Origin: Arenibacter echinorum
GTDB taxonomy: Bacteria; Bacteroidota; Bacteroidia; Flavobacteriales; Flavobacteriaceae
Direction of reading: 5' to 3'
Length of the DNA: 64,000 nt
NCBI RefSeq assembly: GCF_003259375.1
Contig: NZ_QLLN01000003.1
Location: forward strand, 300,955-364,954
Shown here one piece after another: positions 29,047-44,579 of the stretch. The stretch's first letter is position 1; each line of letters begins with the position of its first letter. The notes beneath the pieces were generated by a model. The model did not search any database. It was not told the origin of the DNA and saw nothing but the letters and a program-made list of their open reading frames with translations. The translations under genes and the position numbers were made by a program.

Positions 29047-30894
29047 TTATTCCTCAGTAGCCATTAATTCCCTGCTATCCGTTTTATAGTTAATGGTTAC
29101 CCTGGTACCCTTTCCAGGAATGGAGTTAATAAAAAGACGTCCGTTGATATAGTTCATTCTCTCTTTCATAAAGAAAAGTCCCATTCCTCCTTCGCTGGTA
29201 TTTTTGGGAACCTTTCCCAAGATAGAATCGTCAAAACCCTTGCCATCATCATCGATGACTACACTTAAAACATTGTCATTAAAGTTAATGGTTACCAAAA
29301 TAAAATTGGCCTCGGAATACTTTATGGCATTATTTACCGCTTCCTGTACAACGCGATAAATATTGGTTTCCGCCAAGGAATTAAAACGAATGTTCTCTTC
29401 GGTCTTATTTTCGAAGAGTATATTTTTACCGGTAAGTTTGGAGAGTTCATGGGTCATTTTGTGAAGTGCGGGAAATATTCCATGATCACTAAGTTCTGGA
29501 GGGGTCAGGTTAAAGGTGGCAGTGCGCACTCCTTTGATCAAATCACTGGCAAGGCTTTTAATGTATTCTATTTTTTCGGCAGTTTTTTCCTTATTGCTAA
29601 GATTGATCGATTCTATATTAAATTTCAAAGCGGTCAACATTTGTCCAATGCCATCGTGGATATCCTTGGCAATTCTTTTGCGCTCCTCTTCCTGACCTTC
29701 AACAATCTGGCTGGCCTGCAACTGCTTTTGCCTCATGGTCTCTTCGTAATTGGCTTGGGTCAACTGTGCTACTTTTAGCTCATTCTGTTTGCGTTCCGTT
29801 ATATTGGAACACAATATTAGAATGGATTGTTGGGCACTGGATTGGTGCATTGGGATAATGGACATATCCAACCAGAGCGAATCCCCTTTGGCAGTCTTGA
29901 TCTTTATCTCTTCGGTCCTGATATTTTTCCTATTGCTTTTTAATACTTCCGCCAGATATTGTTGTTGCCCTTCATCCGTTGTCAATATTTCGTATAACGG
30001 CCTATTTAAATCTTGATCGTTACGCCCTAAAAGTTCATTGAATTTTTTACTGATAAAAACAACATTTCCATCTTGCTTGGTGCTTGCGAAAAGGGCGGCA
30101 TTATCTATCACAAAATTAAGCTCCTGTAGTTCCTGTAAGGATTTTTCCTTTTCTTGGAAGAGTTTTTTAATCTCCTTGGTGCTTTCATCCGATTTTTTGT
30201 GCGCGACAATTAAATTCTTGATCGTGTTTCTAATTTGTAGTGAAAGAGGTTTAAAGATGAAAAATATCTCCAAAATCAATATGAGGAGCGATATGGCCAA
30301 TAATAGATATTCCTTAAATTTTAAATTCTGTAAATGTGTTTTACTAAGGACATCATACTTATTGACGATGGTGTCCATCATCTTCAAAAAAGTACGCTCA
30401 TTTTCTAAAAGAATATCAACATACAATTGGTGGGGAATTGATTTCCCTGTATCCTTAAAATCGGCCAAGATATTTTCCACGGCAGCTACCATTGCATTGT
30501 AATGCGGGTTTATTTTCTGGAAAAGCTCTTGGACTTCCTCATTCTCCTCCTCTGAAATACCCATGGCCACATCACTGTGTTGTAACGCTTGATGGGATTC
30601 TTTCCAAACGGCTAGGGTTTCCCTTAATTCTGCAAATATTTGATTTCGCTGTTCGGGATCGGACAATTCCTTTAATAGCAATACTTCCTTAGTCAATTTT
30701 TGACTATAGGCCCTTTGTCTGCCCGCAACATTGATCACTTTTGAATCGTCCAGTTGGGAATTTAAATGATGTTGAATCAAGATTTGGGCCACAATGATAC
30801 TTAAGGCAATAGCGGCCAATGCAAACAAATACCACTTCCGGATCCTTTGAAAGGTGGTAGTATCCAGGGGTGCATGGTATTTATCGTCGTTCAT
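29047..30894 (-). CDS. NarX-like sensor histidine kinase with PilJ-type sensor and PAS
   Basis: A 615-aa membrane kinase. The first transmembrane helix is at about 22-42 and the second at about 190-212. Between them lies a periplasmic four-helix domain of the PilJ/NarX type with the P-box-like stretch VAGRQRAYSQKLTKEVLLLKEL, the element that binds nitrate or nitrite in NarX/NarQ. A coiled coil, then a PAS domain (about 255-375), then a HisKA_3 domain with the phospho-His in RIAKDIHDGIGQ (about residue 413) and a HATPase domain (about 505-610; NNAIKYS, DDDGKGFD, GGMGLFFMKER). It is encoded in the nirBD unit; its likely partner is the NarL-type regulator at 38.7 kb. Nitrate/nitrite sensing is inferred from the motif and context. 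Confidence 0.88.
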   Translation of the reverse strand: MNDDKYHAPLDTTTFQRIRKWYLFALAAIALSIIVAQILIQHHLNSQLDDSKVINVAGRQRAYSQKLTKEVLLLKELSDPEQRNQIFAELRETLAVWKESHQALQHSDVAMGISEEENEEVQELFQKINPHYNAMVAAVENILADFKDTGKSIPHQLYVDILLENERTFLKMMDTIVNKYDVLSKTHLQNLKFKEYLLLAISLLILILEIFFIFKPLSLQIRNTIKNLIVAHKKSDESTKEIKKLFQEKEKSLQELQELNFVIDNAALFASTKQDGNVVFISKKFNELLGRNDQDLNRPLYEILTTDEGQQQYLAEVLKSNRKNIRTEEIKIKTAKGDSLWLDMSIIPMHQSSAQQSILILCSNITERKQNELKVAQLTQANYEETMRQKQLQASQIVEGQEEERKRIAKDIHDGIGQMLTALKFNIESINLSNKEKTAEKIEYIKSLASDLIKGVRTATFNLTPPELSDHGIFPALHKMTHELSKLTGKNILFENKTEENIRFNSLAETNIYRVVQEAVNNAIKYSEANFILVTINFNDNVLSVVIDDDGKGFDDSILGKVPKNTSEGGMGLFFMKERMNYINGRLFINSIPGKGTRVTINYKTDSRELMATEE

Positions 30895-30923: not shown

Positions 30924-31511
30924 CTATCCCTTAAGTGCTTTACCTATCAACTCTAGCGATTCCTTTGATAAGGGTAGTTTTAAGGCCGCATCATGACCTT
31001 TTTTGGACATTTTTCGCCATGTTTTTTGAAGAATATCAATTAGTTTTTCCTCCGGATATTTATGTGAAAATGGCTCAAAATAGAATTCAAGGAATACTAG
31101 GCAAATTACATCTTCCAAAGTCTGTGTCTCTGCATTTTTTTTAAGTTGCTTCTTTTCCAATAAAAAAGCTACCTTATCTATCATTTCTTGATCATAGCCC
31201 ACTTCCCTGAGAATGGCACCGGCCTTCTCTGCATGAAATTTTTTCAGGTCCTGCCTCCATTTTAAATAGCCCGTCCTGTTCATTTCATAGGATTCCCTTG
31301 GAATCTCCCATCTGCGGATATGCTGACACCTGGACGTAAGCTGTAAAGATTCCGGTGCCTCGGGATCAAATGTTCTTAACTTCTCTGTCATTCTCATGGC
31401 ATACAACAACTCCTTGGGATACTCCTTGCCCTGCCATACTTCTACATTAGGGTCATTGGCATTTGCTACATCAAATAGGCGAAAGGCACTTTTCAATTTT
31501 TCTGAGGCCAT
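30924..31511 (-). CDS. DUF4202 family protein
   Basis: A 195-aa cytoplasmic protein of the DUF4202 family. Its conserved core is CQHIRRWEIPRESYEMNRTGY, followed by W+xxLKKFHAEKAG, with a second acidic/hydrophobic helix block EDVICLVFLEFYFEPFSHKYPEEK. The His and Asp/Glu residues along helical segments suggest an HD-like metal-dependent hydrolase fold, but this is not established. It lies 24 bp after nirD and 29 bp before the sensor kinase gene, so it is part of the nitrite reductase operon. The function is unknown; the location suggests a role in nitrogen assimilation or its control. Confidence 0.85.
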   Translation of the reverse strand: MASEKLKSAFRLFDVANANDPNVEVWQGKEYPKELLYAMRMTEKLRTFDPEAPESLQLTSRCQHIRRWEIPRESYEMNRTGYLKWRQDLKKFHAEKAGAILREVGYDQEMIDKVAFLLEKKQLKKNAETQTLEDVICLVFLEFYFEPFSHKYPEEKLIDILQKTWRKMSKKGHDAALKLPLSKESLELIGKALKG

Positions 31512-31535: not shown

Positions 31536-31913
31536 CTATTCAGAAAAACCAATATAAACAAAGTCGTTCTCTATTTTAACCGGATATGTTGCTATGCTAT
31601 TCAAATCCCCATTAAGATGCATTCCCGTTTTTAGGGAAAAGGAGTTTTTATGTAGCGGACAGGCTACCTTGGGTTCACCTTGATCTTCTCCTATCATTCC
31701 CCGTGAAAGGACCATTTCCATTTTATGGGGGCATAAATTCTGGCAGGCATACCACGTCCCTTCCCTTGTAAAATTAAAAACTGCAATTTGCATTCCCTTA
31801 TATTTTACACAAGCACCCCCGTTTTCTGGAAATTTTTGTACAGGGGCCGCCTTAAACCAAAGACTCACTTTTTCTGTCTCCACTGCTTCGTAAGTGTTTA
31901 AAATTGAAATCAT
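31536..31913 (-). CDS. nirD: Nitrite reductase small subunit, Rieske type
   Basis: A 125-aa partner of NirB for NAD(P)H-dependent reduction of nitrite to ammonium. The Rieske [2Fe-2S] ligands are complete: CPH (Cys61, His63) and CPLH (Cys85, His88). Some NirD proteins, such as that of E. coli, have lost these ligands, so a functional cluster is expected here. It is separated from nirB by 90 bp and from the DUF4202 gene by 24 bp on the same strand. Cytoplasmic; no signal peptide. Confidence 0.93.
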   Translation of the reverse strand: MISILNTYEAVETEKVSLWFKAAPVQKFPENGGACVKYKGMQIAVFNFTREGTWYACQNLCPHKMEMVLSRGMIGEDQGEPKVACPLHKNSFSLKTGMHLNGDLNSIATYPVKIENDFVYIGFSE

Positions 31914-32003: not shown

Positions 32004-34520
32004 CTAGACCCACGCCTTAGGCATTTTTTGTTCCCTTAAGGAAACAAATTCAATGGTGTCGTCAGTGTCTTCGGCATTCACAAAATGAGTATACCTTGCC
32101 CTTATTTCTGGATTTTCTACAGCCTCTTTCCACTCACATTTATAGGTATCTACCAAATACTGCATTTCGCTGTCCAACTGATCCGCAATACCTAGGCAAT
32201 CATTAATGACAACATCTTTCACATAATCTATACCCCCGTCAAGTTTATCCAACCAAGCAGCTGTTCGGGTTAGGGGGGGAGCAGTCTGTATATAGTACAT
32301 TAAAAATCGGTCTACATATTTGGTAGCTGTTATCTTGTCTACCTTTTCAGCAAGCAATTGTGCATGCTGTGGATTGGCCCCGCCATTTCCACATATATAT
32401 ACATTCCAACCACCTTCAACGGCTATAAAACCGAAATCCTTATTCCTGGCCTCTGCACATTCCCTAATACATCCGGAAACACCACCCTTAATTTTATGCG
32501 GGGAACGTATGCCCTTATAGCGGTTCTCTATATCGATGGCAAATGTCACACTTTCATCCATCCCATATCTACACCATGTAGAACCTACACAACTTTTAAC
32601 GGTCCGTAGCGATTTACCATAAGCTTGACCCGTTTCAAAACCTTCCGCAATTAATTCCTCCCATATAAGTGGTAGTTCGTGCAATTGTGCCCCGAACATG
32701 TCAATACGCTGTCCACCTGTAATTTTAGTATACAAATCATATTTTTGCGCTATTTTACCAATGGCCAAAAGCTGTTTTGGGGTAATTTCTCCGGCTGCGA
32801 CCCTAGGTACTACCGAATAGGTCCCGTTCCTTTGAATATTGGCCAAATATCGATCGTTCGTGTCCTGTATGGTTGCCTGCCTATTGGCTGTTTCATTGTA
32901 AATACTGGCGAAAATAGAGGCCACTGCGGGCTTACAAACTTCACATCCATGTCCTTTTCCAACCTCGTCCAACAGCGAATTGTAGTCCTCAATTTTTCTA
33001 AGTTTTACAATATCGTACAGTTCCTGTCTGGAATATTCAAAATGCTCGCAAATGGACTCCTTAATTACTTTTCCTAAGGATTTAAGGGTTTCCTTTACCA
33101 AATCGTCGACCATTGGTTTGCACCCTCCACAACCAGTTGTTGCCTTGGTAGCTTTGGAAATTGCTTTTACGCTTTCGTTGCCATCATCTTTTACAGAGCA
33201 ACATATTTGTCCTTTGGTAACTGCTTCACAGGAACATATCACAGCCGTATCCGGTAGGTCCATAGCACTGCCAAATGACATATCCTGACCACCGCGACTT
33301 CCTAAAATAAGATTTTCAGGATTTTTGGGCAATGGCATTTCGTTAAGATACATCTGCAAGAGCATATTGTAATCTTGGGCATCACCTACCAAGATTCCGC
33401 CCAGAAGCCGTTTGCCATCATGGCTTACATTGATCCTTTTATAAAGACTCTCCGTTTTGTTTTCAAAAATAATAGAGTGCCCTTTTTCCGCCGGCATAAA
33501 GGGAATCCCAAAACTGGCAACGTCCACCCCTATAAGTTTAAGTTTGGTAGACATATCTATCTCTGCTGCCATAACAGTCTCCTCCATACCCAGAATCTGA
33601 TCTACCGCAACACCCGCCATTTCATATCCGGGAGCAACCAGACCATAGATCATTTGGTTGTAAAGGGCTATTTCCCCAATAGCGAAAATATTGGGATCTG
33701 AAGTTCTCATTTTATTATCCACTACTATGCCTCCTCTGGTACCCATTTTAAGGCCGCAACTTTTTCCCAATTCGTCCCTAGGCCTTATTCCTGCCGAAAT
33801 CACCAACATATCTACATTCAGGACATCGTCTTCCCCAAATTCCATCCCTATGACATGACCATTACCTAAAATCTGATTTGTAGCTTTGCTCAAATGAATA
33901 TTGATTCCCATAGATTCCAACTTCACCTGTAGTACCTTACTACTTCTAGTATCCAACTGTCTAGGCATTAATTTAGGGGCAAATTCCACAACATGTGGCT
34001 CCATACCCATATCCATCACGGCCTTGGCCGCCTCAAGACCTAATAGTCCACCCCCCAAGATGGCCGCCTTTGGTTTTTCTACAGTTTTCTTTATTTTGTC
34101 GGCATAGGCCAAGGTATCTTCCAAGTCCTCTATAGTCCTATACACGAACACTCCTTCCTTATCTACTCCATTTATTTGAGGCACAAACGGACTGGAGCCG
34201 GTTGCCAACACCAAATAATCATAATTAAAGGTCTTTTCGCTAAGAGTGGTTATTGTTTTTGAATTTCTATGAATATCCGTTACCCTCTCATTGATATAAA
34301 GTTCAATGTTATTTTCCTGGTACCATTCTCTGGGAGCCATGGATAAACGTTCCGCATCACCATTTTCAAAATACTCACTTAAATGTACCCTATCATAGGC
34401 AACTCTTGGTTCTTCTCCAAAAACAATCAGTTTAAAGGAGGCTTGGTCTACTTTGGACACAAATTTCTCACAGAATTTGTATCCAACCATTCCATTTCCA
34501 ACTACAATTACGGTCTTCAT
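32004..34520 (-). CDS. nirB: Nitrite reductase [NAD(P)H] large subunit
   Basis: An 838-aa flavo-iron-sulfur-sirohaem protein that reduces nitrite to ammonium. Modules: FAD/NAD(P)-binding domains (about 1-310; VVGNGMVGYKF, AILGGGLLGLEAA, PNIFAIGEIA); two BFD-like [2Fe-2S] domains (about 425-475 with CSCEAV..TGCGGCKP, and about 485-540 ending GHGCEVCKP); the ferredoxin-like nitrite/sulfite reductase half domain (about 550-625); and the [4Fe-4S]-sirohaem site with SCVGSTWC (Cys-x5-Cys, about 643) and GCIREC (Cys-x3-Cys, about 685). It is the first gene of the minus-strand operon. The divergent cobA gene makes the sirohaem precursor. Its promoter carries the tandem TACGTA element. Confidence 0.97.
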   Translation of the reverse strand: MKTVIVVGNGMVGYKFCEKFVSKVDQASFKLIVFGEEPRVAYDRVHLSEYFENGDAERLSMAPREWYQENNIELYINERVTDIHRNSKTITTLSEKTFNYDYLVLATGSSPFVPQINGVDKEGVFVYRTIEDLEDTLAYADKIKKTVEKPKAAILGGGLLGLEAAKAVMDMGMEPHVVEFAPKLMPRQLDTRSSKVLQVKLESMGINIHLSKATNQILGNGHVIGMEFGEDDVLNVDMLVISAGIRPRDELGKSCGLKMGTRGGIVVDNKMRTSDPNIFAIGEIALYNQMIYGLVAPGYEMAGVAVDQILGMEETVMAAEIDMSTKLKLIGVDVASFGIPFMPAEKGHSIIFENKTESLYKRINVSHDGKRLLGGILVGDAQDYNMLLQMYLNEMPLPKNPENLILGSRGGQDMSFGSAMDLPDTAVICSCEAVTKGQICCSVKDDGNESVKAISKATKATTGCGGCKPMVDDLVKETLKSLGKVIKESICEHFEYSRQELYDIVKLRKIEDYNSLLDEVGKGHGCEVCKPAVASIFASIYNETANRQATIQDTNDRYLANIQRNGTYSVVPRVAAGEITPKQLLAIGKIAQKYDLYTKITGGQRIDMFGAQLHELPLIWEELIAEGFETGQAYGKSLRTVKSCVGSTWCRYGMDESVTFAIDIENRYKGIRSPHKIKGGVSGCIRECAEARNKDFGFIAVEGGWNVYICGNGGANPQHAQLLAEKVDKITATKYVDRFLMYYIQTAPPLTRTAAWLDKLDGGIDYVKDVVINDCLGIADQLDSEMQYLVDTYKCEWKEAVENPEIRARYTHFVNAEDTDDTIEFVSLREQKMPKAWV

Positions 34521-34545
34521 ACGTATACTATTAAATGTTACGTAG

Positions 34546-34567
34546 CAATATTACGTATAATTACGTA
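34546..34567 (-). promoter_or_regulatory. nirB promoter with tandem TACGTA palindromes
   Basis: On the minus strand the order is TACGTA (34567-34562), 4 bp, TACGTA (34557-34552), with the last TA also starting a -7-like element TAATATTG (consensus TAnnTTTG). Further TACGTA copies lie at 34539-34544 and 34520-34525 (the latter touches the nirB start codon). The same 22-bp arrangement stands before narK. Chance is unlikely: five TACGTA hexamers fall within 81 bp here. The binding protein is unknown. Confidence 0.65.
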
Positions 34568-34591
34568 ATTAATATATGTTTTTATGAAAAT

Positions 34592-34606
34592 AAATACGTA
34601 TTTTTG
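34592..34606 (+). promoter_or_regulatory. cobA promoter: AAATACGTATTT palindrome overlapping the -7 element
   Basis: AAATACGTATTT (34592-34603) is a perfect 12-bp palindrome, and its right half is the start of TATTTTTG (34599-34606), a match to the Bacteroidota -7 consensus TAnnTTTG. Transcription should begin near 34613, which rules out the upstream ATG at 34584 as the cobA start and supports the ATG at 34647. Confidence 0.65.
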
Positions 34607-34646
34607 TTGCGAAATTCTTAATTGCATATCTAAAAAAGTAGAAATC

Positions 34647-35414
34647 ATGAGCATATCCAAAGACCCAAAAGTTAGTTTAGTAGGTGCTGGTCCGGGAAGT
34701 AGCGACCTTATTACCATAAGAGGATACAGAACATTGGAGGATGCCGATGTAATCTTATATGATGCTCTAATAAGCACGGATTTGCTACAGGATCTAAATC
34801 CGGATATCCCCAAAGTCTACGTAGGGAAAAGATGTGGGGAGCATTCCCTTACCCAAGAAGATATTAATAAATTAATCGTGGAAAAAGCCTTTAACTACGG
34901 ACATGTTGTGCGTTTAAAGGGTGGGGATCCTTTTGTATTCGGTAGGGCCAGTGAAGAATTGGAATACGTTGAATCTTTCGGAATACCGGTTACGGTCGTT
35001 CCAGGGGTAACCAGTGCGATAGCCGTTCCGGCTAGTCAAGGAATCCCGGTAACCAGACGGGGAATTAGCAGTAGTTTCTGGGTGATGACAGCCACAAAAC
35101 GCGATGGTTCCTTTTCCGAAGATCTGGAACTGGCAGCCAAGTCATCGGCCACAATGGTCATATTAATGGGCGTACGTAGATTTTTGGAAATTGCTGGTGA
35201 AATTGTTCAACATAGAAATGGACTAACCCCATTTGCAATTATACAAAATGGAACCATTAAAAATGAAACTTGTATAACAGGACTTCTAAAAGATGCTGGC
35301 TCACTTGTTGAGCAAATAGATATTACACAACCCGGAATAATAGTGGTTGGGGAAGTAGTAACCGAACATCCGTCCTTTTTTGAAGAGGAAATTCAACGGG
35401 CACTTTACTATTAG
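34647..35414 (+). CDS. cobA: Uroporphyrinogen-III C-methyltransferase
   Basis: A 255-aa SAM-dependent methyltransferase that makes precorrin-2, the first committed step to sirohaem, the cofactor of NirB. Motifs: VSLVGAGPGSSDLITIRG near the N-terminus, VYVGKRCGEHSLTQ, VVRLKGGDPFVFGR, VPGVTSAIAVPASQGIPVTRRG, and VILMGVRRF. No precorrin-2 dehydrogenase/ferrochelatase domain is fused to it, so those steps must be encoded elsewhere. The open frame extends to 34584, but the promoter element at 34592-34606 makes the ATG at 34647 the right start. It is divergent from nirB and shares its control region. Confidence 0.93.
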   Translation: MSISKDPKVSLVGAGPGSSDLITIRGYRTLEDADVILYDALISTDLLQDLNPDIPKVYVGKRCGEHSLTQEDINKLIVEKAFNYGHVVRLKGGDPFVFGRASEELEYVESFGIPVTVVPGVTSAIAVPASQGIPVTRRGISSSFWVMTATKRDGSFSEDLELAAKSSATMVILMGVRRFLEIAGEIVQHRNGLTPFAIIQNGTIKNETCITGLLKDAGSLVEQIDITQPGIIVVGEVVTEHPSFFEEEIQRALYY

Positions 35415-35557
35415 GTACCCACCTAATACAACACATTTACAATATTGCAATAGGACTACCTGATTAATTGCAATTTCATAATCGCAGGCTTAATATTTTC
35501 CCACCTTCATAAAAACACTACTTATTTTCGGTATTACATAAAAATAATAAGTAATAA

Positions 35558-35579
35558 TACGTAGAAATACGTATTTTTG
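35558..35579 (+). promoter_or_regulatory. narK promoter with tandem TACGTA palindromes
   Basis: TACGTA (35558-35563), 4 bp, TACGTA (35568-35573); the last TA starts TATTTTTG (35572-35579), a full match to the -7 consensus TAnnTTTG. The 22-bp layout is the same as that before nirB (17 of 22 positions identical on aligned strands). No -33 TTG is visible at the usual distance, which fits a promoter that depends on an activator. The transcript should begin near 35586, which supports the narK ATG at 35621. Confidence 0.68.
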
Positions 35580-35620
35580 AATTGTTAAACGAAACAACTA
35601 ATCCTATAAACAATTCAGTT

Positions 35621-37039
35621 ATGAAAGAATTTGTCTCTGCTAAAGCTACTAAATTAGAACTTTTAAACTTGAGGAGTGTACCAATACGTACGTTTTGGAT
35701 TACCTCCATCGCCTTTTTCATTTGTTTCTTTGCCTGGTTCGGAATTGTTCCTTTTATGCCCGACGTGGTCAAAGACTTGGGATTGACACCTACCCAAAAG
35801 TGGAACTCCATAATATTGGCGGTTTCAGGAACAGTATTCGCCAGATTGTTAATCGGCAAGTTATGTGACAAGTATGGTCCTAGACTGTGTTATACTTATT
35901 TATTGATACTCGGATCCATCCCTGTTATACTTCTAGGTTTTGTACAAACACCGCTTCAATTTCTAATTTGTAGGTTGTTCATTGGTTTTATAGGTGCTTC
36001 GTTCGTAATAACCCAATTCCATACTTCCATAATGTTTGCTCCAAATATAGTGGGTACAGCAAATGCCACTTCCGCTGGCTGGGGTAACCTTGGAGGAGGG
36101 GCCAACCGATTGGGAATGCCATTGATCGCAGCAGGAGTTGTTAGTTTTGGAATTGCCGATGAAGTAGCCTGGAGATATTCCATGGTCATTGCCGGTGTTA
36201 TTTGCTTTGCTATGGGACTTATATATTACTTCTTTACCAAAGATACCCCCGAAGGCAATTTCAAGGAACTTAAGGAAGAAGGTAAAATGCCTAATTTAAA
36301 GAAAGATGAAGTATCCTTCTTGAGTACCTTAAAAGATTACAGGGTCTGGATCTTGTTTTTAGTTTATGCGGCTTGTTTTGGAATAGAATTAACAGTGTAT
36401 GGTACTATGGACGATTATCTTCAAAATAGATTTGGTCTGGATCGTTCTACCGCAGGAAATTTAGTATTGTCGTTTGCCCTTATGAATATTTTTGCCAGAA
36501 CTTTAGGTGGCTATTTCGGAGACCTGTTCGGTAAGTTCCGTGGCCTGCGCGGCAGGGTAGTTTTTCTTGCGCTGATCTTGGCTACGGAAGGACTAATGCT
36601 TTCCATCTTTTCCGTGACCACTAGTCTGGTATTTGGTATGATATTTTTGATCGCTTTTAGTCTCACCGTTCAAATGGCGGAAGGTGCCACTTTCTCTGTT
36701 GTGCCATTTATTAATAAAAAAGCCATAGGATCCATTTCCGGTATTGTTGGGGCAGGAGGAAACGTAGGGGCCTTTATGGCTGCCATGTTATTAAAATCCA
36801 AATCGGCCGTGGCCGAGAGTGCTGCCATTGCCGCCAACAGCGAATTAGGAGAGCAGGCTATAAAGGCCGCCCAGACGACTGCGGCAGCTTCGGCAGTATC
36901 CAGTGGATTTTTTGTCATAGGAGGATTTATAGTAATTGCAGCCCTTCTATCCCTTGCCATTAGGTTTGCAACTGCCGAGGAAATGGCTGTTATAGATGAA
37001 ACCAAGGCCGAACTTTTATTATCAGGAGTCGATAAATAG
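35621..37039 (+). CDS. narK: Nitrate/nitrite transporter, MFS NarK family
   Basis: A 472-aa, 12-helix inner-membrane transporter of the nitrate/nitrite porter family. Helix 2 has the substrate-binding Arg in FARLLIGKLCDKYG and helix 8 the second Arg in FARTLGGYFGD. Both glycine-rich nitrate signatures are present: SAGWGNLGGG in helix 5 and GIVGAGGNVGAF in helix 11. The frame can be extended to a TTG at 35582, but this lies upstream of the expected transcription start, so I use the ATG at 35621. It is the import step of the island: nitrate enters here and is reduced by the fused nitrate reductase at 39.6 kb. Confidence 0.95.
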   Translation: MKEFVSAKATKLELLNLRSVPIRTFWITSIAFFICFFAWFGIVPFMPDVVKDLGLTPTQKWNSIILAVSGTVFARLLIGKLCDKYGPRLCYTYLLILGSIPVILLGFVQTPLQFLICRLFIGFIGASFVITQFHTSIMFAPNIVGTANATSAGWGNLGGGANRLGMPLIAAGVVSFGIADEVAWRYSMVIAGVICFAMGLIYYFFTKDTPEGNFKELKEEGKMPNLKKDEVSFLSTLKDYRVWILFLVYAACFGIELTVYGTMDDYLQNRFGLDRSTAGNLVLSFALMNIFARTLGGYFGDLFGKFRGLRGRVVFLALILATEGLMLSIFSVTTSLVFGMIFLIAFSLTVQMAEGATFSVVPFINKKAIGSISGIVGAGGNVGAFMAAMLLKSKSAVAESAAIAANSELGEQAIKAAQTTAAASAVSSGFFVIGGFIVIAALLSLAIRFATAEEMAVIDETKAELLLSGVDK

Positions 37040-37057
37040 GGGAAGAAATAAACTGCT

Positions 37058-37078
37058 GTGCCCATTTTGGCACTTTTA
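37058..37078 (+). terminator. Possible narK terminator
   Basis: GTGCC (37058-37062) and GGCAC (37069-37073) form a 5-bp stem with a 6-nt loop, followed by TTTTA. It lies 19 bp after the narK stop. The short stem keeps confidence modest. Confidence 0.45.
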
Positions 37079-37114
37079 TCCAAACATACCAAGCTACTGA
37101 AATTGAAATCGGAA

Positions 37115-37149
37115 TACGGAATGGATAATTGCAATTATTTTATTCCGTA
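37115..37149. repeat. Nested palindrome between narK and the porin gene
   Basis: The outer arms TACGGAAT (37115-37122) and ATTCCGTA (37142-37149) enclose a second perfect palindrome, ATAATTGCAATTAT (37125-37138), with short GG and TTT bulges. It may be a transcript-end structure or a regulator site for the downstream porin gene. Confidence 0.5.
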
Positions 37150-37268
37150 ATTCTGATCAAAATATGAAATAAGCCATAATAATTTTTCACATGAACCTGT
37201 GCGATTAATGGCAAATTACTCCTTATGTTTACAGGTTATACTCCTAAAAAATAAATACCTATCAACAG

Positions 37269-38552
37269 ATGAAAAGAATATATTTTTTATTTATCGTTAC
37301 AGTCCTCTATGGATCAATTGCCAATGCACAGTTTACATTGGATGGAGAATTTAGACCTCGTACCGAATTACGTCACGGTTTTGGCAGTCTAATTACCGAT
37401 GATGCAGATGCCGGTTTTGGTGTTTCAACCCGTTTGCGTTTAAATGCGGGCTACACTATAGATGCCTACACATTTTATGTAAGCCTTCAAGATGTTATTG
37501 TATGGGGCGAAAATAGGCAGCTTCTACCGGATGATGAGAATAATTCCTTCGCTGTCTTTGAAGCCTGGGCAGATATAAATTTTGGAAGTAATTTTTCAGC
37601 CAAATTGGGAAGACAGACCTTGGATTACGACGATGAACGCATATTGGGCAGTGTTGGTTGGACACAACAGGCACGTAATCATGACGCCGCTATTTTAAAA
37701 TACGCCAAAGAGCGTTTTCAGTTGGATCTGGGATTGGCCTACAGCCAGGATTATGATAATCCCAGTGGCTTTCAATCAGTTGGCACGGCTTATAACACTA
37801 CTGGGTTCTTCTCTTATAAAACCATGCAATACCTTTATTTGAAGGAGAATTGGAAAAACTTAAGCGTGAGCCTATTACTGTTGAACAATGGCTTCCAGAA
37901 TTTTGAAGTTGATGGTACAACGCCTGACGGTATAAGTAATTTACAGACCCTAGGCACACATTTAGATTATAAAAAAGGAAGTTTTGGGGCTGCTTTGAAC
38001 GCTTTTCTTCAAACCGGGGAAAGACAAGGTGCAGTTGATGTAGGAGGTGCTTATTTGTTGGGACTTGATTTCAACTATAATGCTTCTGCAAAAATAAGTC
38101 TTGTCGCCGGTATGGAAATCATTAGTGGTAATGATGCCGGTACCACTGATAAAACAGAGGCCTTTTTCCCCCTTTATGGTACCAATCATAAATTCAATGG
38201 ATTTATGGATTATTTCTACGTAGGCAATCACGCCAATTCCGTTGGATTATTGGATGTTCATGTGAGTGCCAATTTCAAGCTTGGGGAGAAATCAAGTTTA
38301 ATGGTCAAGGCACTTAACTTTAGTGGAGAGCAAGAATTGCCTAGCAGGGAAAAATCGTTGGGGACCGAATTGGATCTTGTGTTCTCACAGGCATTCAATG
38401 GTTATTCCCTTCAGTTGGGTTATTCCCAAATGTTTGCCAATGATGGTATGTACGAATTAAAAGGCATTACTGAAGATGCTTCGGCCAGTAGCCAAAACTG
38501 GGCTTGGGCCATGCTGGTCATCAAACCCAAATTTTTGAATACTTCCAAATAA
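37269..38552 (+). CDS. Outer-membrane porin, alginate-export-like family
   Basis: A 427-aa beta-barrel protein with a signal peptide (about 1-20, ending IANAQ). The body has alternating hydrophobic/polar strands with aromatic girdles (YTIDAYTFYVSLQDVIVWGE, FSAKLGRQTLDYDDERILG, VGWTQQARNHDAAILKY), as in the alginate_exp/AlgE-like porins of Bacteroidota. KLGRQ.LDYDDERILG is a typical segment of this group. It sits between narK and the response regulator inside the nitrate island, so it may serve as the outer-membrane entry route for nitrate or nitrite. No alginate genes are near. The barrel is well supported; the substrate is inference. Confidence 0.82.
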   Translation: MKRIYFLFIVTVLYGSIANAQFTLDGEFRPRTELRHGFGSLITDDADAGFGVSTRLRLNAGYTIDAYTFYVSLQDVIVWGENRQLLPDDENNSFAVFEAWADINFGSNFSAKLGRQTLDYDDERILGSVGWTQQARNHDAAILKYAKERFQLDLGLAYSQDYDNPSGFQSVGTAYNTTGFFSYKTMQYLYLKENWKNLSVSLLLLNNGFQNFEVDGTTPDGISNLQTLGTHLDYKKGSFGAALNAFLQTGERQGAVDVGGAYLLGLDFNYNASAKISLVAGMEIISGNDAGTTDKTEAFFPLYGTNHKFNGFMDYFYVGNHANSVGLLDVHVSANFKLGEKSSLMVKALNFSGEQELPSREKSLGTELDLVFSQAFNGYSLQLGYSQMFANDGMYELKGITEDASASSQNWAWAMLVIKPKFLNTSK

Positions 38553-38691
38553 TCCAGTTATCATTGGAGTTTTGTTTATAAAACGTGGCAAAATAATAAA
38601 ACTCTAGGTCAAACGATATTACAATCAAGGTCAATTATCATAATTTTAGTATCTATTTTCACCGTATGAATACTTAGTTTTAATTTTATCC

Positions 38692-38699
38692 TATATTTG
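38692..38699 (+). promoter_or_regulatory. -7 promoter element of the response regulator gene
   Basis: TATATTTG matches the Bacteroidota -7 consensus TAnnTTTG. Transcription would begin at about 38706, 14 bp before the GTG start. There is no TACGTA here, unlike the structural genes. Confidence 0.5.
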
Positions 38700-38719
38700 T
38701 TTGGAAAGAATAGACTATT

Positions 38720-39391
38720 GTGGATAAAACAACGCGTATTGTATTGGCCGATGACCATTCTCTGGTAAGGGATGGTATTAGAGCCTTATTGGAAGAAGAT
38801 GATAATTATGTGGTGATCGGTGAGGTCTCCAATGGCAAGGAGGCCGTTCAAATGGTATTGGATAAAAAACCCGATCTCTTGATCATTGATATCCGAATGC
38901 CCGAAATGAATGGTATAGAGGCCGTTGAAGAACTCAAAAAACATTCTTCAACAACCAAATCTATTATACTTTCCATGCACGATTCCGAAGAATACATCCT
39001 TAAATCGGTAAATGCTGGAGCTAGTGGTTATCTCTTGAAGGATACCGGAAAAACTGAATTTCTTAAGGCTATTTCTACCGTTGAACAAGGTGGAAAATAT
39101 TTTAGTGGTGATATTTCCAATGTTTTGGTAAACAATCTGTTGAGTCAGGGACAGACAAAGCCGGAAAGCAAGCATCCCTCAAAAAATGGAAATAACTCCT
39201 TTGGGATTACAAGCAAGGAATTGCAAATCCTGGAACTCGTCCTTTCAGGGCTTACCAATAAACAAATTTCTGAAAAACTTCAAAAAAGCAAACGTACCAT
39301 TGAAACACATCGCTTTAATCTAATGCGAAAAATGGGCGTAAATAACCTTATGGACCTGGCCAGAAAGGCACAGGAATATAAACTGATTTAA
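38720..39391 (+). CDS. NarL-type two-component response regulator
   Basis: A 223-aa regulator. Receiver domain (about 6-122): acidic pocket DDH at 11-13, phospho-acceptor Asp57 in LLIIDIRMPEMNG, switch Ser85 in IILSMHD and Lys107 in YLLKDT. C-terminal LuxR/GerE helix-turn-helix (about 158-220) with GITSKELQILELVLSGLTNKQISEKL and KRTIETHRFNLMRKMG. The start is GTG; the next in-frame Met would cut into the receiver. The HisKA_3 kinase encoded in the nirBD operon is the natural partner, making a NarX/NarL-like system split between the two strands of the island. It is also the best candidate in this window to bind the TACGTA elements. Confidence 0.93.
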   Translation: MDKTTRIVLADDHSLVRDGIRALLEEDDNYVVIGEVSNGKEAVQMVLDKKPDLLIIDIRMPEMNGIEAVEELKKHSSTTKSIILSMHDSEEYILKSVNAGASGYLLKDTGKTEFLKAISTVEQGGKYFSGDISNVLVNNLLSQGQTKPESKHPSKNGNNSFGITSKELQILELVLSGLTNKQISEKLQKSKRTIETHRFNLMRKMGVNNLMDLARKAQEYKLI

Positions 39392-39529
39392 CTTGTCATA
39401 TTTGGTTTTTTATTGATTTACAGCGGTTTATCATGTTTTAGATCCATGGTATATTCTGTAATATCCAATGAAAAAGCAATTTTATTGTCTTTTCGTCAAT
39501 AATCCGCCCAACTATTATCAATAAATTAC

Positions 39530-39535
39530 TACGTA
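39530..39535 (+). promoter_or_regulatory. Single TACGTA site upstream of the nitrate reductase gene
   Basis: One TACGTA, in the context ACTACGTATTTATAC, lies 62 bp before the nitrate reductase ATG. It shares the right half ACGTATTT with the cobA and narK sites, but here the -7 match is poor (TATTTATA). It is a likely member of the same set of sites. Confidence 0.5.
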
Positions 39536-39597
39536 TTTATACTTAATTTGGTAATTTTAGATCATATTTAATTGGTTTCTTTTAATACAAGGATTTT

Positions 39598-42500
39598 ATG
39601 CAGAAAAAGAACGAACATAAGACTATTTGCTCCTACTGTGGGGTGGGGTGTGGCATTGTGGTGGAACAGGACTCCAAGGGCAATATTAGTGTTGAAGGAG
39701 ATCAAGATTATCCTGTAAACAAAGGTATGCTTTGTTCCAAAGGGAAGAATCTTAACTATGTGGCCCAGGATGTAAGTGACCGGATCTTATATCCGGAAAT
39801 GAGATGGAGCAGAAATCACCCTTTACAAAAAGTTTCGTGGGATACGGCCTTTGATAGAGCCGTTGCCGTATTCAAAAGCATTATCGAAAAGCATGGTCCG
39901 GACAGTGTAGGGTTCTATGTTTCTGGCCAGTGCCTTACTGAAGAATATTATTTGGTTAATAAATTGACCAAAGGTTTTATAGGCACCAATAATATTGATA
40001 CCAATTCCAGGCTCTGCATGAGTTCTGCCGTTGTGGGTTATAAAAAAATGTTGGGAGAGGATTCCGTGCCCATTTCTTATGATGACATAGAGTTATCAGA
40101 TTGTTTCCTTATCGCCGGGGCAAATCCTGCCTGGTGTCACCCCATCCTGTTTAGAAGAATAGAAAATCACAAGGAGAACAATCCGGATGTAAAAATAATA
40201 GTAGTAGACCCTAGGAAAACACAGACCTGTGCTGCGGCAGATCTTCATTTACAAATATTACCGGGAACGGATGTTATTCTATTTAATGCCATAGCCCGCT
40301 GGTTGATAGAAAAGAAAAAAACGGATAGAAACTTCATTAAAAAGCATACGGTAAATTTTGATGCGGTTAAAGAGAGTGCCTTTCAACTTTCAATGAAAAA
40401 AGCAGCCGAACTTTGTGGAATTCCTGTAGAGGACATCAAGAAGGCGGCAATGTATATAGGCAATGCCAATGCTTTTATAAGTATGTGGACCATGGGCCTA
40501 AACCAAAGTGTCATTGGTGTTTCCAAAAATGTCGCATTAATGAACCTGTCACTGCTTACTGGACAAATCGGGAAGCCCGGTGCAGGACCATTTTCGCTTA
40601 CCGGACAACCCAACGCCATGGGGGGTAGGGAAGTAGGTGGTATGGCCAGCTTGCTTGCGGCCCATAGGGAATTGGGCAATCCCAAACACCGCAAGGAAGT
40701 ATCTGATTTTTGGGGTGGAAAAGAAATAAAATCCGAACCTGGCTATACCGCCACAGAGATGTTCGACGCATTGGAAAATGGCAAAATGAAGGCGGTGTGG
40801 ATTATCTGTACCAATCCAATAGTGAGCATGCCCAATGTACATAAAGCGGAAAAGGCATTAAAAAATGCCAACTTTGTGGTCGTTCAGGATATTTCACATA
40901 ATTCCGAGACAACTAAATTTGCTGACCTCTTATTACCGGCTGCAGGCTGGCTGGAAAAGGAAGGGACTATGACCAATTCAGAAAGGCGCATTAGTTACCT
41001 TCCCAAAGTAATTGATGCGCCGGGAGAGGCTTTACCGGACGCAGAAATATTATGGAAGTTTGCACAAAAAATGGGGTATCATGGATTTGACTATAAAAAT
41101 GCCAGTGAAGTATATGACGAACACTGCCTTTTAACAAAAGGTACCGAAATAGATATATCCGGTTTATCCTATGATCGACTAAAGAACGAAGGCAGCTTTC
41201 AATGGCCGGTACCCCACGCTACACATATGGGTACACCCAGACTGTTTACGGACTATCAATTCTTTACCAATGATAAGAAATCGCACTTCAACGCCCCCCA
41301 ATCACTTTACAATAAATCGGAAATAACAACACCTGAATATCCCTTAATTCTCAATACAGGTAGGGTAAGGGACCAATGGCATACCCGCACCAAAACCGGA
41401 AAGGTAAAACGTCTGCTTACCCATATTCCAGATCCGTATTTGGAAATGAACAAAGTGGATGCCTATTTGAGAAAATTAAAGGATGGGGATATAGCGGTGA
41501 TAAAAAGTAGGAGAGGAACAGTACAGGTTAAAGTTAAGGTGAGTTTTGACATTCGTGAAAAGGTAGTCTTTCTCCCTATGCATTGGGGCAAAGTGCTGAA
41601 TAATGATTTTGGCAGGGCAAATAACTTGACCAATGACCTAATTGATCCAGTATCCAAGGAGCCTGATTTTAAGTATTGTGCCGTAGAAGTGGCAAAGTAT
41701 GTAAAACCCAAACAGAAGATTGTGATTATAGGAGCTGGAGCTGCGGCCTATAGATTTATCCAGACCTATAGGGAAAAAAATGAAACAGATCAACTCCACG
41801 TTTTCTCCAAGGAAAAAGATCCTTTTTACAATAGGGTATTACTCCCTGAATATGTAAGTGAGGAACTCTCATGGGAAGCTCTCGAAAAACTAAAAAAAGG
41901 AGAACTTGAAAAATTGGATATTACACTACATCAAGGTTTAGGAGTAACTCAAATAGATAGGAAAAATAAAACCGTGCTGGACGACAACGGTTTTGAACAC
42001 GCCTACGATATACTTGTAATGGCAACAGGGAGTAGGGCCTTTGTTCCTAGTGAGGTACAAATAAACATGCCAGGTCGTTTTACTATGAGAGAACGCGGGG
42101 ATGCCGATAAATTACGTAAATATTTGGAAGATACCGGCCTGCCCTCAGAAGAACAACATGTGGTAATCGTTGGAGGTGGACTTCTGGGACTGGAGCTGGC
42201 GGCAGCGCTTAAGAACAGAAATGTAAATATCAGTATCATTCAACGTGCCCCTAGATTAATGGAAAGACAGTTGGATAGAATTGCGAGTCGACTGTTGGCC
42301 GAGGATGTGAGTGATAGGGGAATTAAGGTTTATTATGATAATGAGGTAAGTACCGTATTCGAGGAAAGGGATGACAAGAACTCCCTTTCAATTACCTTAA
42401 AAACGGGAAGGACGGTTAAATGCAATGCCATCGTTTATGCCATTGGTACCCGTCCCAATATTGAGTTGGCAAAGCATTCAGATCTTAAGACAGGGAGGGG

Positions 42501-43131
42501 AGTGGTAGTCAATGAATATTTGCAGACCAGCGATCCCAATATCTTTGCGCTTGGGGAGATTGCCGAATTTAGAAATGCCCTTTTTGGCATAACGTCGGCC
42601 GCCGAGCAACAGGCCGATACCGCTGCAAAATATATCATGGGCGATTTTAGCAGTATCTATAATGGATCTATCCTTATGAACATTTTAAAGTTCGAAAATC
42701 TGGACCTCTGTAGTCTGGGTATGGTAAATGCCCCCTTGGATGACAACAGTTATGAGGAAATTATCCTAATGGATGTCACAAAGAAATACTACAAAAAATG
42801 TATCGTAAAAGACGATACCCTAAAAGGTGCCATCCTTATGGGGGACAAAAACGAGTTCGCCGAATTTAAAAGATTAATTGAGGAAGAAATTGAACTATCC
42901 GAAAAGCGGAACGAGCTACTTAGAGGGCAATCAAATTCTGTTCCTTTGAAAGGAAAATTGGTATGCTCATGCAGTCAGGTAGGAGAAGGCAATCTAATTG
43001 AAACAATTAATGGGGGATGTGAAGACTTCTCAAAACTGTGCTCAGAAACTGGAGCGGGGCTTGGCTGTGGAAGTTGTAAACCCGAAATACAGGATATTTT
43101 GCGAAAAGAATTACAAACAGTTACCTCATAA
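39598..43131 (+). CDS. nasA: Assimilatory nitrate reductase fused to its FAD/NAD(P)H reductase
   Basis: A 1177-aa cytoplasmic enzyme reducing nitrate to nitrite. Residues 1-55 bind a [4Fe-4S] cluster (Cys11, Cys14, Cys18, Cys46). Residues about 55-560 are the molybdopterin domain (FYVSGQCLTEEYYLVNK, TNSRLCMSSAVVGYK) and about 575-700 the molybdopterin dinucleotide-binding domain (LNTGRVRDQWHTRTKTGK). From about 705 a second enzyme follows: FAD/NAD(P)-binding domains (IVIIGAGAAAYRF, VVIVGGGLLGLELA, PNIFALGEIAE), ending with a BFD-like [2Fe-2S] domain (about 1121-1175; CSCSQV..GLGCGSCKP). In Bacillus and Klebsiella these are separate NasC/NasB-type subunits, so this is a one-chain NAD(P)H:nitrate reductase. 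The rubredoxin-fusion gene follows after 11 bp. Confidence 0.95.
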   Translation: MQKKNEHKTICSYCGVGCGIVVEQDSKGNISVEGDQDYPVNKGMLCSKGKNLNYVAQDVSDRILYPEMRWSRNHPLQKVSWDTAFDRAVAVFKSIIEKHGPDSVGFYVSGQCLTEEYYLVNKLTKGFIGTNNIDTNSRLCMSSAVVGYKKMLGEDSVPISYDDIELSDCFLIAGANPAWCHPILFRRIENHKENNPDVKIIVVDPRKTQTCAAADLHLQILPGTDVILFNAIARWLIEKKKTDRNFIKKHTVNFDAVKESAFQLSMKKAAELCGIPVEDIKKAAMYIGNANAFISMWTMGLNQSVIGVSKNVALMNLSLLTGQIGKPGAGPFSLTGQPNAMGGREVGGMASLLAAHRELGNPKHRKEVSDFWGGKEIKSEPGYTATEMFDALENGKMKAVWIICTNPIVSMPNVHKAEKALKNANFVVVQDISHNSETTKFADLLLPAAGWLEKEGTMTNSERRISYLPKVIDAPGEALPDAEILWKFAQKMGYHGFDYKNASEVYDEHCLLTKGTEIDISGLSYDRLKNEGSFQWPVPHATHMGTPRLFTDYQFFTNDKKSHFNAPQSLYNKSEITTPEYPLILNTGRVRDQWHTRTKTGKVKRLLTHIPDPYLEMNKVDAYLRKLKDGDIAVIKSRRGTVQVKVKVSFDIREKVVFLPMHWGKVLNNDFGRANNLTNDLIDPVSKEPDFKYCAVEVAKYVKPKQKIVIIGAGAAAYRFIQTYREKNETDQLHVFSKEKDPFYNRVLLPEYVSEELSWEALEKLKKGELEKLDITLHQGLGVTQIDRKNKTVLDDNGFEHAYDILVMATGSRAFVPSEVQINMPGRFTMRERGDADKLRKYLEDTGLPSEEQHVVIVGGGLLGLELAAALKNRNVNISIIQRAPRLMERQLDRIASRLLAEDVSDRGIKVYYDNEVSTVFEERDDKNSLSITLKTGRTVKCNAIVYAIGTRPNIELAKHSDLKTGRGVVVNEYLQTSDPNIFALGEIAEFRNALFGITSAAEQQADTAAKYIMGDFSSIYNGSILMNILKFENLDLCSLGMVNAPLDDNSYEEIILMDVTKKYYKKCIVKDDTLKGAILMGDKNEFAEFKRLIEEEIELSEKRNELLRGQSNSVPLKGKLVCSCSQVGEGNLIETINGGCEDFSKLCSETGAGLGCGSCKPEIQDILRKELQTVTS

Positions 43132-43142
43132 AATATATCGTT

Positions 43143-44579
43143 ATGAATGATGATTTACACCGAATATTGATCAAGGGAGGAGTAACTTCTCCAGGGGAAT
43201 TAAAGGATATCATTGCCATGTTGGAAGCTGGCGGGCTGAAAGAGGTATTTTTTGGATCGCGGCAAGATTTGTTGTTCCCATTGCAAAATGCCAAAGAGGA
43301 ACAATTGGAACAAATATCAAAATTCAACACCGATATCGTTAGCGAAAGAAGTTACCAAAATATAGTAACTTCATATGTGTCCGCCGATATTTTTGATATG
43401 ACCAACTGGCTCAAAGGGTCCACTTATCTGTATATTTTGGAAGGTTTTGATTATCTGCCCAAATTAAAAATAAACATCACCGACCCCAAGCAACGCTTGG
43501 TACCTATTTTTAATGGCAACCTTAACTTTATTGCTTCGGATAGTGAGGATTATTGGTACCTGAACATTAAACTTCCGCACTGGACGAAATCCGTGTACTA
43601 CCCTGTCTTAATTTATAGTTGGGACATCCATACCGTGGCCAAGGCTATTGAGGAAATATATCAGGACGTAGCGGATATAGACGAACTATTTTTTATTCTC
43701 AATAAAAAATTGGATACCAATAATAGAACCATGGAACGGGAGCTGGTGGTTCCCTATATTAAATTTCCTTATTACGAAGGAATGAATAGAATGGGGCTGG
43801 ATCAATACTGGTTGGGACTTTATTGGCGAAACAATAGATACGATCTTGATTTTCTAAAAAAATTATGTGGCTTTTGTCTGGACAACAGCATTGGGAAAAT
43901 ATGCATCACGCCGTGGAAGTCATTTATTATAAAAGGAATTAAAAGTTCCAGCAGGCCCGAACTGGAACGCTTTCTAGGACAAAAAGGAATCAATATTCGT
44001 CACTCCCAATTGGAAATGAACTGGCACCTACCGGTAGATGATATGGAGGCACTGGAATTGAAAAAATTCTTGGTGCTAAGTTTTGATCAGAACGATATCA
44101 GCACCTATGGACTGACCTTTGGCATAAGCAATGAAACGGGGAAGAGAACACATTTCTCATCTGTAATAATTGAAAAGAACACCCAACCCACTATTGTAAA
44201 GGATTTTGCCGTAAGGCCAACTTACAACGTTTTGCATTTTAAAAATTTCGATCCCAATACACAAGAATATCAAGTTTACGCCCAAGATGTAGATAAGATA
44301 GAGTTACCAGGTCTGTTAATGGAACTGAGTAAACATTATTTTGATCAATTGGGAAGGGCCGTCGCCAAAAAAGAAACCCCCAAGAATGCAAATGTTGATA
44401 TTTTGAAAGAAGTTTATCAATGTAGCTCTTGTTTCACAGTTTATGACGAAACCTACGGTGATGCAAAATCGCAGGTCGCTGTTGGAACTTCATTTGCAGA
44501 CCTTAGTGAGGATTACTGCTGTCCGGTTTGTTCTGCCCCCAAATCAGGATTTGAAAAAATGAAACTACAAATATTGTAA
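43143..44579 (+). CDS. Rubredoxin fused to a nitrite/sulfite-reductase-like scaffold without sirohaem site
   Basis: A 478-aa protein. The C-terminal part (about 425-478) is a rubredoxin: CSSC and CPVC are the four iron ligands, followed by SAPKSGFE. The first about 420 residues resemble the ferredoxin-like half domains of nitrite/sulfite reductases: KGGVTSPGELKDIIAMLE..VFFGSRQDLLFP recalls their N-terminal RQNLQL region and KICITPWKSFIIKGI their LTPWR..LLPG segment. However, the Cys-x5-Cys/Cys-x3-Cys ligands of the [4Fe-4S]-sirohaem centre are absent, so it cannot be a standard nitrite reductase. It is 11 bp behind the nitrate reductase gene and surely co-transcribed. A role in electron delivery, assembly or channelling of nitrite is inference. 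Confidence 0.8.
   Translation: MNDDLHRILIKGGVTSPGELKDIIAMLEAGGLKEVFFGSRQDLLFPLQNAKEEQLEQISKFNTDIVSERSYQNIVTSYVSADIFDMTNWLKGSTYLYILEGFDYLPKLKINITDPKQRLVPIFNGNLNFIASDSEDYWYLNIKLPHWTKSVYYPVLIYSWDIHTVAKAIEEIYQDVADIDELFFILNKKLDTNNRTMERELVVPYIKFPYYEGMNRMGLDQYWLGLYWRNNRYDLDFLKKLCGFCLDNSIGKICITPWKSFIIKGIKSSSRPELERFLGQKGINIRHSQLEMNWHLPVDDMEALELKKFLVLSFDQNDISTYGLTFGISNETGKRTHFSSVIIEKNTQPTIVKDFAVRPTYNVLHFKNFDPNTQEYQVYAQDVDKIELPGLLMELSKHYFDQLGRAVAKKETPKNANVDILKEVYQCSSCFTVYDETYGDAKSQVAVGTSFADLSEDYCCPVCSAPKSGFEKMKLQIL

Follow-up and report, generated by a model that had tools for sequence, protein, structure and literature searches.

The hexamer TACGTA stands repeatedly in front of the nitrate-use genes of Arenibacter echinorum, and the question raised by this locus is which protein reads it there and to what effect. 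The DNA analysed here (the window) comprises 64,000 nucleotides of contig NZ_QLLN01000003.1 (positions 300,955 to 364,954, forward strand) and includes an island of nirB, nirD, cobA, narK and nasA, which encodes one sensor kinase beside nirB-nirD and one response regulator of the NarL/FixJ family before nasA. An earlier note on this sequence had proposed that a tandem of the hexamer, laid over the -7 promoter element, acts as a shared operator that defines a nitrate regulon, and had named a NarL-like regulator, a CRP/FNR-type factor or a GntR-type factor as its possible readers. In the following we show that the hexamers belong to a conserved 16-bp inverted repeat and argue that this repeat is most probably the operator, of FixJ type, of the island's own nitrate two-component system, with the response regulator as its putative reader. 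What results is a candidate pair of regulator and operator, supported on the scale of whole genomes, and a promoter layout in which some bases belong to operator and -7 box alike.

The operator as a 16-bp inverted repeat

The window holds 20 copies of TACGTA against 7.4 expected, a count reached in none of 100 shuffles. Eight of them are non-coding, namely five between nirB and cobA (34520, 34539, 34552, 34562 and 34595), two before narK (35558 and 35568) and one before nasA (39530), exactly where the earlier note had listed them; the remaining 12 lie within open reading frames (ORFs), and its statement that the other non-coding stretches of the window are free of the hexamer is therefore right. 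The three control regions, with a total length of 539 bp, hold 8 of the 20 copies (binomial p ~3e-12), where the shuffled rate predicts ~0.06. The 22-bp layout that nirB and narK were said to share, in which two hexamers separated by 4 bp run into a TAnnTTTG-like -7 box, is likewise exact at both genes (34567 down to 34546, and 35558-35579).

The observation of TACGTA is thus confirmed as real and correct, but the direct tandem did not survive as the unit. Upstream regions of nirB, narK, nasA, nrtA, the regulator gene and a CRP/FNR gene were collected from representatives of 20 genera (84 promoters of 160 bp each), and in a de novo enumeration of gapped 3-mer pairs GTA-N4-TAC ranked first, being present in 61 of the 84 promoters, whereas 60 dinucleotide shuffles gave 4.2 on average and 10 at most. 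The matrix built from 55 such matches in 18 genera (end-proximal matches were dropped, and a few of those kept are clearly due to chance) reads TAMGTA-NNNN-TACKTA followed by NWWTTG. Because of this matrix the better unit is a 16-bp inverted repeat, TAMGTA-N4-TACKTA with the core GTA-N4-TAC, whose right half usually gives the TA of TAnnTTTG; the form with TACGTA in both halves, each of them palindromic by itself, is a special case, and outside the genus the half-site is often TAAGTA/TACTTA.

In the island, a genome pattern scan places the nirB operator TACGTA-ATTA-TACGTA at 34552..34567 (minus strand), where it has a TA in common with the predicted -7 box TAATATTG (34546..34553, minus strand). 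At narK the operator TACGTA-GAAA-TACGTA (35558..35573, plus strand) leads into a predicted -7 box, read from the sequence as TATTTTTG (35572..35579, plus strand), and is overlapped on its upstream side by a second operator, TAAGTA-ATAA-TACGTA (35548..35563, plus strand), with a third half-site, TAAGTA, at 35548. The nasA operator TACGTA-TTTA-TACTTA (39530..39545, plus strand) has one half changed and is followed by TAATTTGG. A weak operator, ACCGTA-TGAA-TACTTA (38661..38676, plus strand), lies 5' of the response regulator gene and is identical in 12/12 genomes, i.e. the window and 11 congeners with upstream regions compared. The full nasA site, the third narK half-site and this weak site had been overlooked before. 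cobA possesses a half-site TACGTA (34595..34600, plus strand), 33 bp upstream of the first half-site of the nirB operator, with a predicted -7 box again read as TATTTTTG (34599..34606, plus strand). Of the two extra TACGTA copies in this region, one (34539..34544) is 13 bp from the second half-site of the nirB operator, and the other (34520..34525) abuts the nirB start codon and is kept in part of the genus only.

The pattern is specific in the 5.19-Mb genome: exact TACGTA-N4-TACGTA is confined to the nirB and narK promoters, one place each, and TAMGTA-N4-TACKTA occurs at five places, four of which are island promoters (nirB, narK twice in overlap, and nasA), while a reversed control pattern occurs at three. 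The sole match outside the nitrate island, TAAGTA-CTAC-TACTTA at G000:C10:66912-66927 (L262:1501-1516), ends 12 bp 5' of the ATG of a small lipoprotein-like ORF and may be either chance or a further target. Extra half-sites are found at 33 and 23 bp upstream of the operator (6/38 promoters each) and at 30 and 31 bp downstream of the operator start (5/36 each), above a background of 0.011 per position, and may accommodate further dimers.

Distribution of the operator and its link to the regulator

The conservation of the operator was followed in three samples. The first consists of 119 relatives, the own genome included (cut-offs: regulator E up to 1e-40, kinase 1e-50, nirB 1e-150, narK 1e-60), among which operator plus -7 pattern, regulator, kinase and nirB were each found in 28 and narK in 24. 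The pattern is present in 26 of the 28 genomes with the regulator and in two of the 91 without it (Fisher ~1e-21; here and below the Fisher values ignore the common ancestry of the genomes and are not true probabilities), whereas the reversed pattern occurs in 3/119. The exceptions are G030 and G050, which possess the pattern without the regulator, and G085 and G105, with the regulator and without the strict pattern. Within the genus, the operator is found in all 12 narK carriers and in none of the six non-carriers.

The second sample covers the phylum with 395 genomes, some of them shared with the first, and a regulator cut-off of E below 1e-60, which leaves a clear gap to the next matches. 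Operator and regulator were found in 20 and 19 genomes, respectively, and together in 14 (14/19 vs 6/376; Fisher ~2e-17); the six operator-only genomes are within chance, the reversed control being present in 10/395. The regulator-positive genomes outside the strict 22-bp pattern are G085 and G105 among the relatives and G293, G308, G316, G358 and G396 in the phylum sample. A closer look showed the 16-bp core 5' of nirB in G085, G308 and G316 and a spacer of N5 in G293; in G105 the start of nirB lies beyond the contig end, and no nirB was found in the stretches fetched for G358 and G396.

The third, named sample was obtained by a kinase-alignment search and comprises the best 80 of 493 confirmed loci, with some genomes shared with the earlier sets and with taxa that include Arenibacter, Zobellia, Maribacter, Cellulophaga, Muricauda/Allomuricauda, Flavobacterium, Aquimarina, Lutibacter and Saprospiraceae. 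Here the 16-mer lies upstream of nirB in 72 of 76 cases (in 70 of 76 also in the -7 register), as compared with 3/76 for the reversed core ATG-N4-CAT, and upstream of narK in 45/48, nrtA in 33/40, nasA in 15/22 and cobA in 59/62, the last largely through the shared nirB/cobA region. GTA-N4-TAC is missing at four named nirB genes. Three of these, from Saprospiraceae (L324, L325 and L328), keep the layout with TGC for TAC (TGCTTA in L325 and L328, TGCGTA in L324), followed by GTTTTG; the region of L341 has neither GTA-N4-TAC nor the TGC variant. The contig of L341 is labelled Thalassovita, presumably an alphaproteobacterial name, and carries a nir island of flavobacterial type; it is perhaps a wrongly named bin. 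Enrichment upstream of nitrate genes across flavobacterial genomes, to be expected if the earlier proposal is right, is therefore found (61/84 promoters, 72/76 named nirB, 26/28 regulator genomes), and a shared operator that defines a nitrate regulon is supported by genome-wide specificity, enumeration, co-occurrence and the named sample alike.

The response regulator (38720..39391, plus strand, GTG start) combines a receiver (Response_reg) with a LuxR-type helix-turn-helix (GerE), which places it in the NarL/FixJ family. Its best full-length solved relative is NarL, but for the DNA-binding domain EsrB, SsrB, 1yio (which we take to be StyR) and FixJ are the nearest, and NarL comes after them. 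The recognition helix fits (K/R)RT-x-E-(T/V)-HR-(F/Y)-N in 44/44 aligned regulators; in the set of 75 rows used for covariation, four have Ala in place of Thr/Val.

The sensor histidine kinase (29047..30894, minus strand) comprises a PilJ-type domain (E 4e-16) followed by PAS, HisKA_3 and HATPase domains, and the former contains a stretch, INVAGRQRAYSQKL, that resembles what we take to be the P-box; by these features it would be a sensor of NarX/NarQ type. Among the best 80 of 493 loci its highest identities, 84-89%, are to Arenibacter records. I-N-x-x-G-(R/K)-Q-R is found in 33 of 34 aligned kinases over 550 aa (three shorter kinases were left out of this count) and is absent in L102. The P-box-like stretch is GRQRAYSQ or GRQRAFSQ in this genus and (G/S)(R/K)QRMLSQ-like in most others. 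The kinase of L102 (G047) lacks the motif and those of L104, L219 and L220 are shorter (451-491 aa as called); operator or core is still kept near these four, and the sensor input there may differ.

Position on the -7 box, sign of control and other readers

We propose that the membrane kinase, with its nitrate-sensor-type PilJ domain, would phosphorylate the response regulator, a dimer of which would then bind TAMGTA-N4-TACKTA in front of three units. The first runs from nirB (32004..34520) through nirD (31536..31913) and a gene for a DUF4202 protein (30924..31511) to the kinase gene, all on the minus strand; the other two, on the plus strand, are narK, a nitrate/nitrite transporter (ATG 35621, 35621..37039), and nasA, a nitrate reductase with fused pyridine-nucleotide reductase domains (39598..43131). 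Binding would be weaker at the regulator's own gene, and would occur through the half-site at cobA (uroporphyrinogen-III C-methyltransferase, 34647..35414, plus strand, its ATG at 34647 backed by homologues). In most islands examined a DUF4202 gene lies between nirD and the sensor kinase gene, and in the window nasA is followed by a gene for a rubredoxin/NIR-SIR half-domain protein (43143..44579, plus strand).

In Flavobacterium psychrophilum TAnnTTTG occupies -12 to -5, according to the available text of PMC9723704, and the usual operator therefore extends from about -26 to -11 (centre -18.5), with its right half giving the -7 TA. The operator promoters carry this Bacteroidota sigma-A -7 box, the G of which is 6 bp past the operator (+6) at 30/58 operators of the 20-genus set and at 70/72 named nirB operators. 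At narK the register is more variable: among 59 named operators, any one of which may count at several registers, we found +6 (23), +11 (9), +16 (14), +18 (17) and +21 (8), and a half-site falls on the -7 box always at +6 and +16, in 8/17 cases at +18 and never at +11 or +21. The overlap with the -7 box described earlier therefore holds as the commonest register and as a rule, but it is neither fixed nor a necessity. In the window the predicted starts are at ~34541 (nirB, minus strand), 35584 (narK), 39556 (nasA) and 34611 (cobA, like the two before it on the plus strand), and by arithmetic the predicted leaders measure ~21 nt (nirB), 37 nt (narK), 42 nt (nasA) and 36 nt (cobA).

The -33 TTG of Bacteroidota sigma-A promoters, sought 17-23 bp upstream of the -7 box, was present at 3/37 operator promoters, i.e. 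at the shuffled level (mean 3.7), and at 24/97 control TAnnTTTG sites (p 0.03; shuffled mean 16). Since -33 lies outside the operator, the operator sequence does not by itself dictate the lack of a TTG. Taken with the register displaced by about one helical turn (12 bp) further upstream, which leaves nine of its 17 narK cases without a half-site on the -7 box, and with the logic of nitrate induction, this makes activation under nitrate appear the likelier sign of control. A tentative version of it, for which the chances may be about one in three, has the activator acting between -33 and -7, the downstream half-site being part of the -7 box and the dimer replacing the -33 contact. If true, this mode would differ from that of NarL and FixJ, which are known to act from upstream class I/II positions, and activation as such would show how a Bacteroidota polymerase can be recruited without a -33 element.

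Several points weigh against the proposal. Regulator, kinase and nirB occupy the identical 28 of 119 genomes and never separate, so that co-occurrence cannot single out the regulator from other factors linked to the island. Upstream of the regulator gene itself, the full 16-mer is found in four of the 31 named loci (out of 80) in which the gene lies inside the fetched flank, and the core in 18/31. Moreover, a raw covariation between recognition helix and operator base (G-type halves 175/236 with Thr and 61/174 with Val, in 75 rows with some genomes twice), which was kept in a regression with GC content, is gone after independent contrasts on the regulator tree (r 0.06, p 0.65; 64 tips after collapsing identical proteins, with one Thr clade of 27 plus one tip, and at least three half-sites in 72/75 rows), and was dropped as evidence. 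As to the sign of control, the -33 argument is weak, as the controls are only modestly above their shuffles (24 vs 16) and kinship is uncorrected, and a centre near -18.5 would be out of the ordinary for an activator of NarL type, whereas it is where a repressor typically binds.

The same regulator might indeed repress, covering the -7 box and excluding RNA polymerase until the block is relieved by nitrate or nitrogen limitation, and the frequency of the +6 register (30/58 operators, 70/72 at named nirB) is what the classic position of a repressor would produce. We nevertheless consider repression less likely than activation: regulators of NarL type, being phosphorylated in response to nitrate, bind when the signal is present, which would make repression of nitrate-use genes odd; few operator promoters have a -33 TTG; and in the +18 register the -7 box is free of the full operator, which is found further upstream, though 8/17 keep a single half-site on the box.

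Activation by the island's response regulator competes further with readers of other families. A factor of another family encoded elsewhere (GntR, Rrf2 or TetR) could be suspected because the hexamer TACGTA is itself a palindrome and the box of cobA, AAATACGTATTT, resembles a short palindromic operator; since the conserved core is GTA-N4-TAC and the halves outside the genus are often the non-palindromic TAAGTA/TACTTA, such a reader appears improbable. The island of the window showed no other regulator, and in particular no GntR candidate, the genome at large not having been searched for GntR or for every factor.

A reader from the CRP/FNR family is hardly probable either, although FNR-like sites are compatible with N4 spacing and a CRP/FNR gene is often close at hand. 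It lies near nrtA-like or globin genes, is found within the fetched flank in 31/80 named loci, and is itself preceded by the 16-mer in eight of the nine representative genera of the 20-genus set in which it was found. The strict pattern lies 5' of it in G031, G034, G053, G061 and G066, and in the four aligned of these five the protein has an N-terminal CxxCx4C (operators at L092:5393-5414, L093:5046-5067, L095:5775-5796 and L097:8000-8021). The gene is followed by nrtA-like (NMT1_2) and permease genes in L095, and by genes for a globin, a Tll0287-like protein and a FAD/2Fe-2S reductase in L092. Close homologues (E below 1e-90), however, occur in 10/119 genomes, all of which have the response regulator, and are missing from this genome, while 17 of the 18 regulator-positive genomes without one keep the operator. 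Similarly, the nirB 16-mer is present in 31/31 named loci with a CRP/FNR gene in the flank and in 41/45 without, and a general CRP/FNR homologue (E ~1e-39 to 1e-41; G000:C4:190637-191296) also occurs in six operator-free congeners. CRP/FNR as reader is thus disfavoured by co-occurrence, and of the regulators suggested earlier the NarL-like one is favoured (26/28 vs 2/91). Most plausibly the CRP/FNR gene often belongs to the regulon or is one of its targets, albeit an uneven one: the 16-mer is directly upstream in only 2/31 named loci (reversed-core control 4/31), in most of which the preceding stretch reads as the end of another ORF, so that the gene may be co-transcribed. Chance or composition, finally, can be dismissed for practical purposes: the promoters are AT-rich and TACGTA is over-represented throughout the window, but neither the shuffles nor the reversed-pattern controls nor the genome-wide count leave room for it.

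Comparison with known operator systems

From sequence evidence we regard the conserved operator, with its FixJ-type site and regulator and its unusual position on the -7 box, as real. Among the open-access papers listed on flavobacterial nitrate control, no title or abstract opening gave an account of this operator or of a nitrate-use switch, which is no proof of absence, nor did we find in these papers an experiment on this system.

Nearest by sequence of the DNA-binding domain are the SsrB/EsrB-type regulators, which differ in having unrelated targets and a more degenerate site; for SsrB, the accessible text of PMC2837388 describes heptamers in a 7-4-7 architecture with single half-sites tolerated. 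NarXL/NarQP of Escherichia coli likewise pair a nitrate-type sensor kinase with a NarL-family regulator and a site of 16 bp in total. The NarL consensus is TACYNMT-N2-AKNRGTA (7-2-7); it fits none of the five window sites that were checked and has no match in the window. For the site, FixJ is the closer comparison, and not NarL, whose half-site the earlier note had called only partly similar. The present system further differs from E. coli NarL in its recognition helix, in its assimilatory targets and in the predicted position at -18.5 instead of upstream of -35; at E. coli ogt and in constructs, the NarL-type activator is centred at -44.5, -67.5 and -77.5 (PMC7419079, text available in part).

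The closest counterpart is the FixJ operator of rhizobial fixK. The part of PMC4999443 available to us gives the FixJ site at fixK as TAAGTAATTTCCCTTA, i.e. TAAGTA-N4-CCCTTA, and a class GTAMGTAG from SELEX (systematic evolution of ligands by exponential enrichment), and on this basis the two systems have the same half-site (TAAGTA/TAMGTA), the same N4 spacing and the same overall length of 16 bp, a form that the 55 GTA-N4-TAC matches from 18 genera also appear to share. The recognition helices are similar too, and just as FixLJ drives the CRP/FNR gene fixK, a CRP/FNR gene carries the operator here in several genera. By contrast, the operator described here is symmetric in both halves and overlies the -7 box of nitrate-use genes, in promoters of Bacteroidota, and its kinase has a PilJ sensor of nitrate type, whereas that of FixLJ is a haem oxygen sensor.

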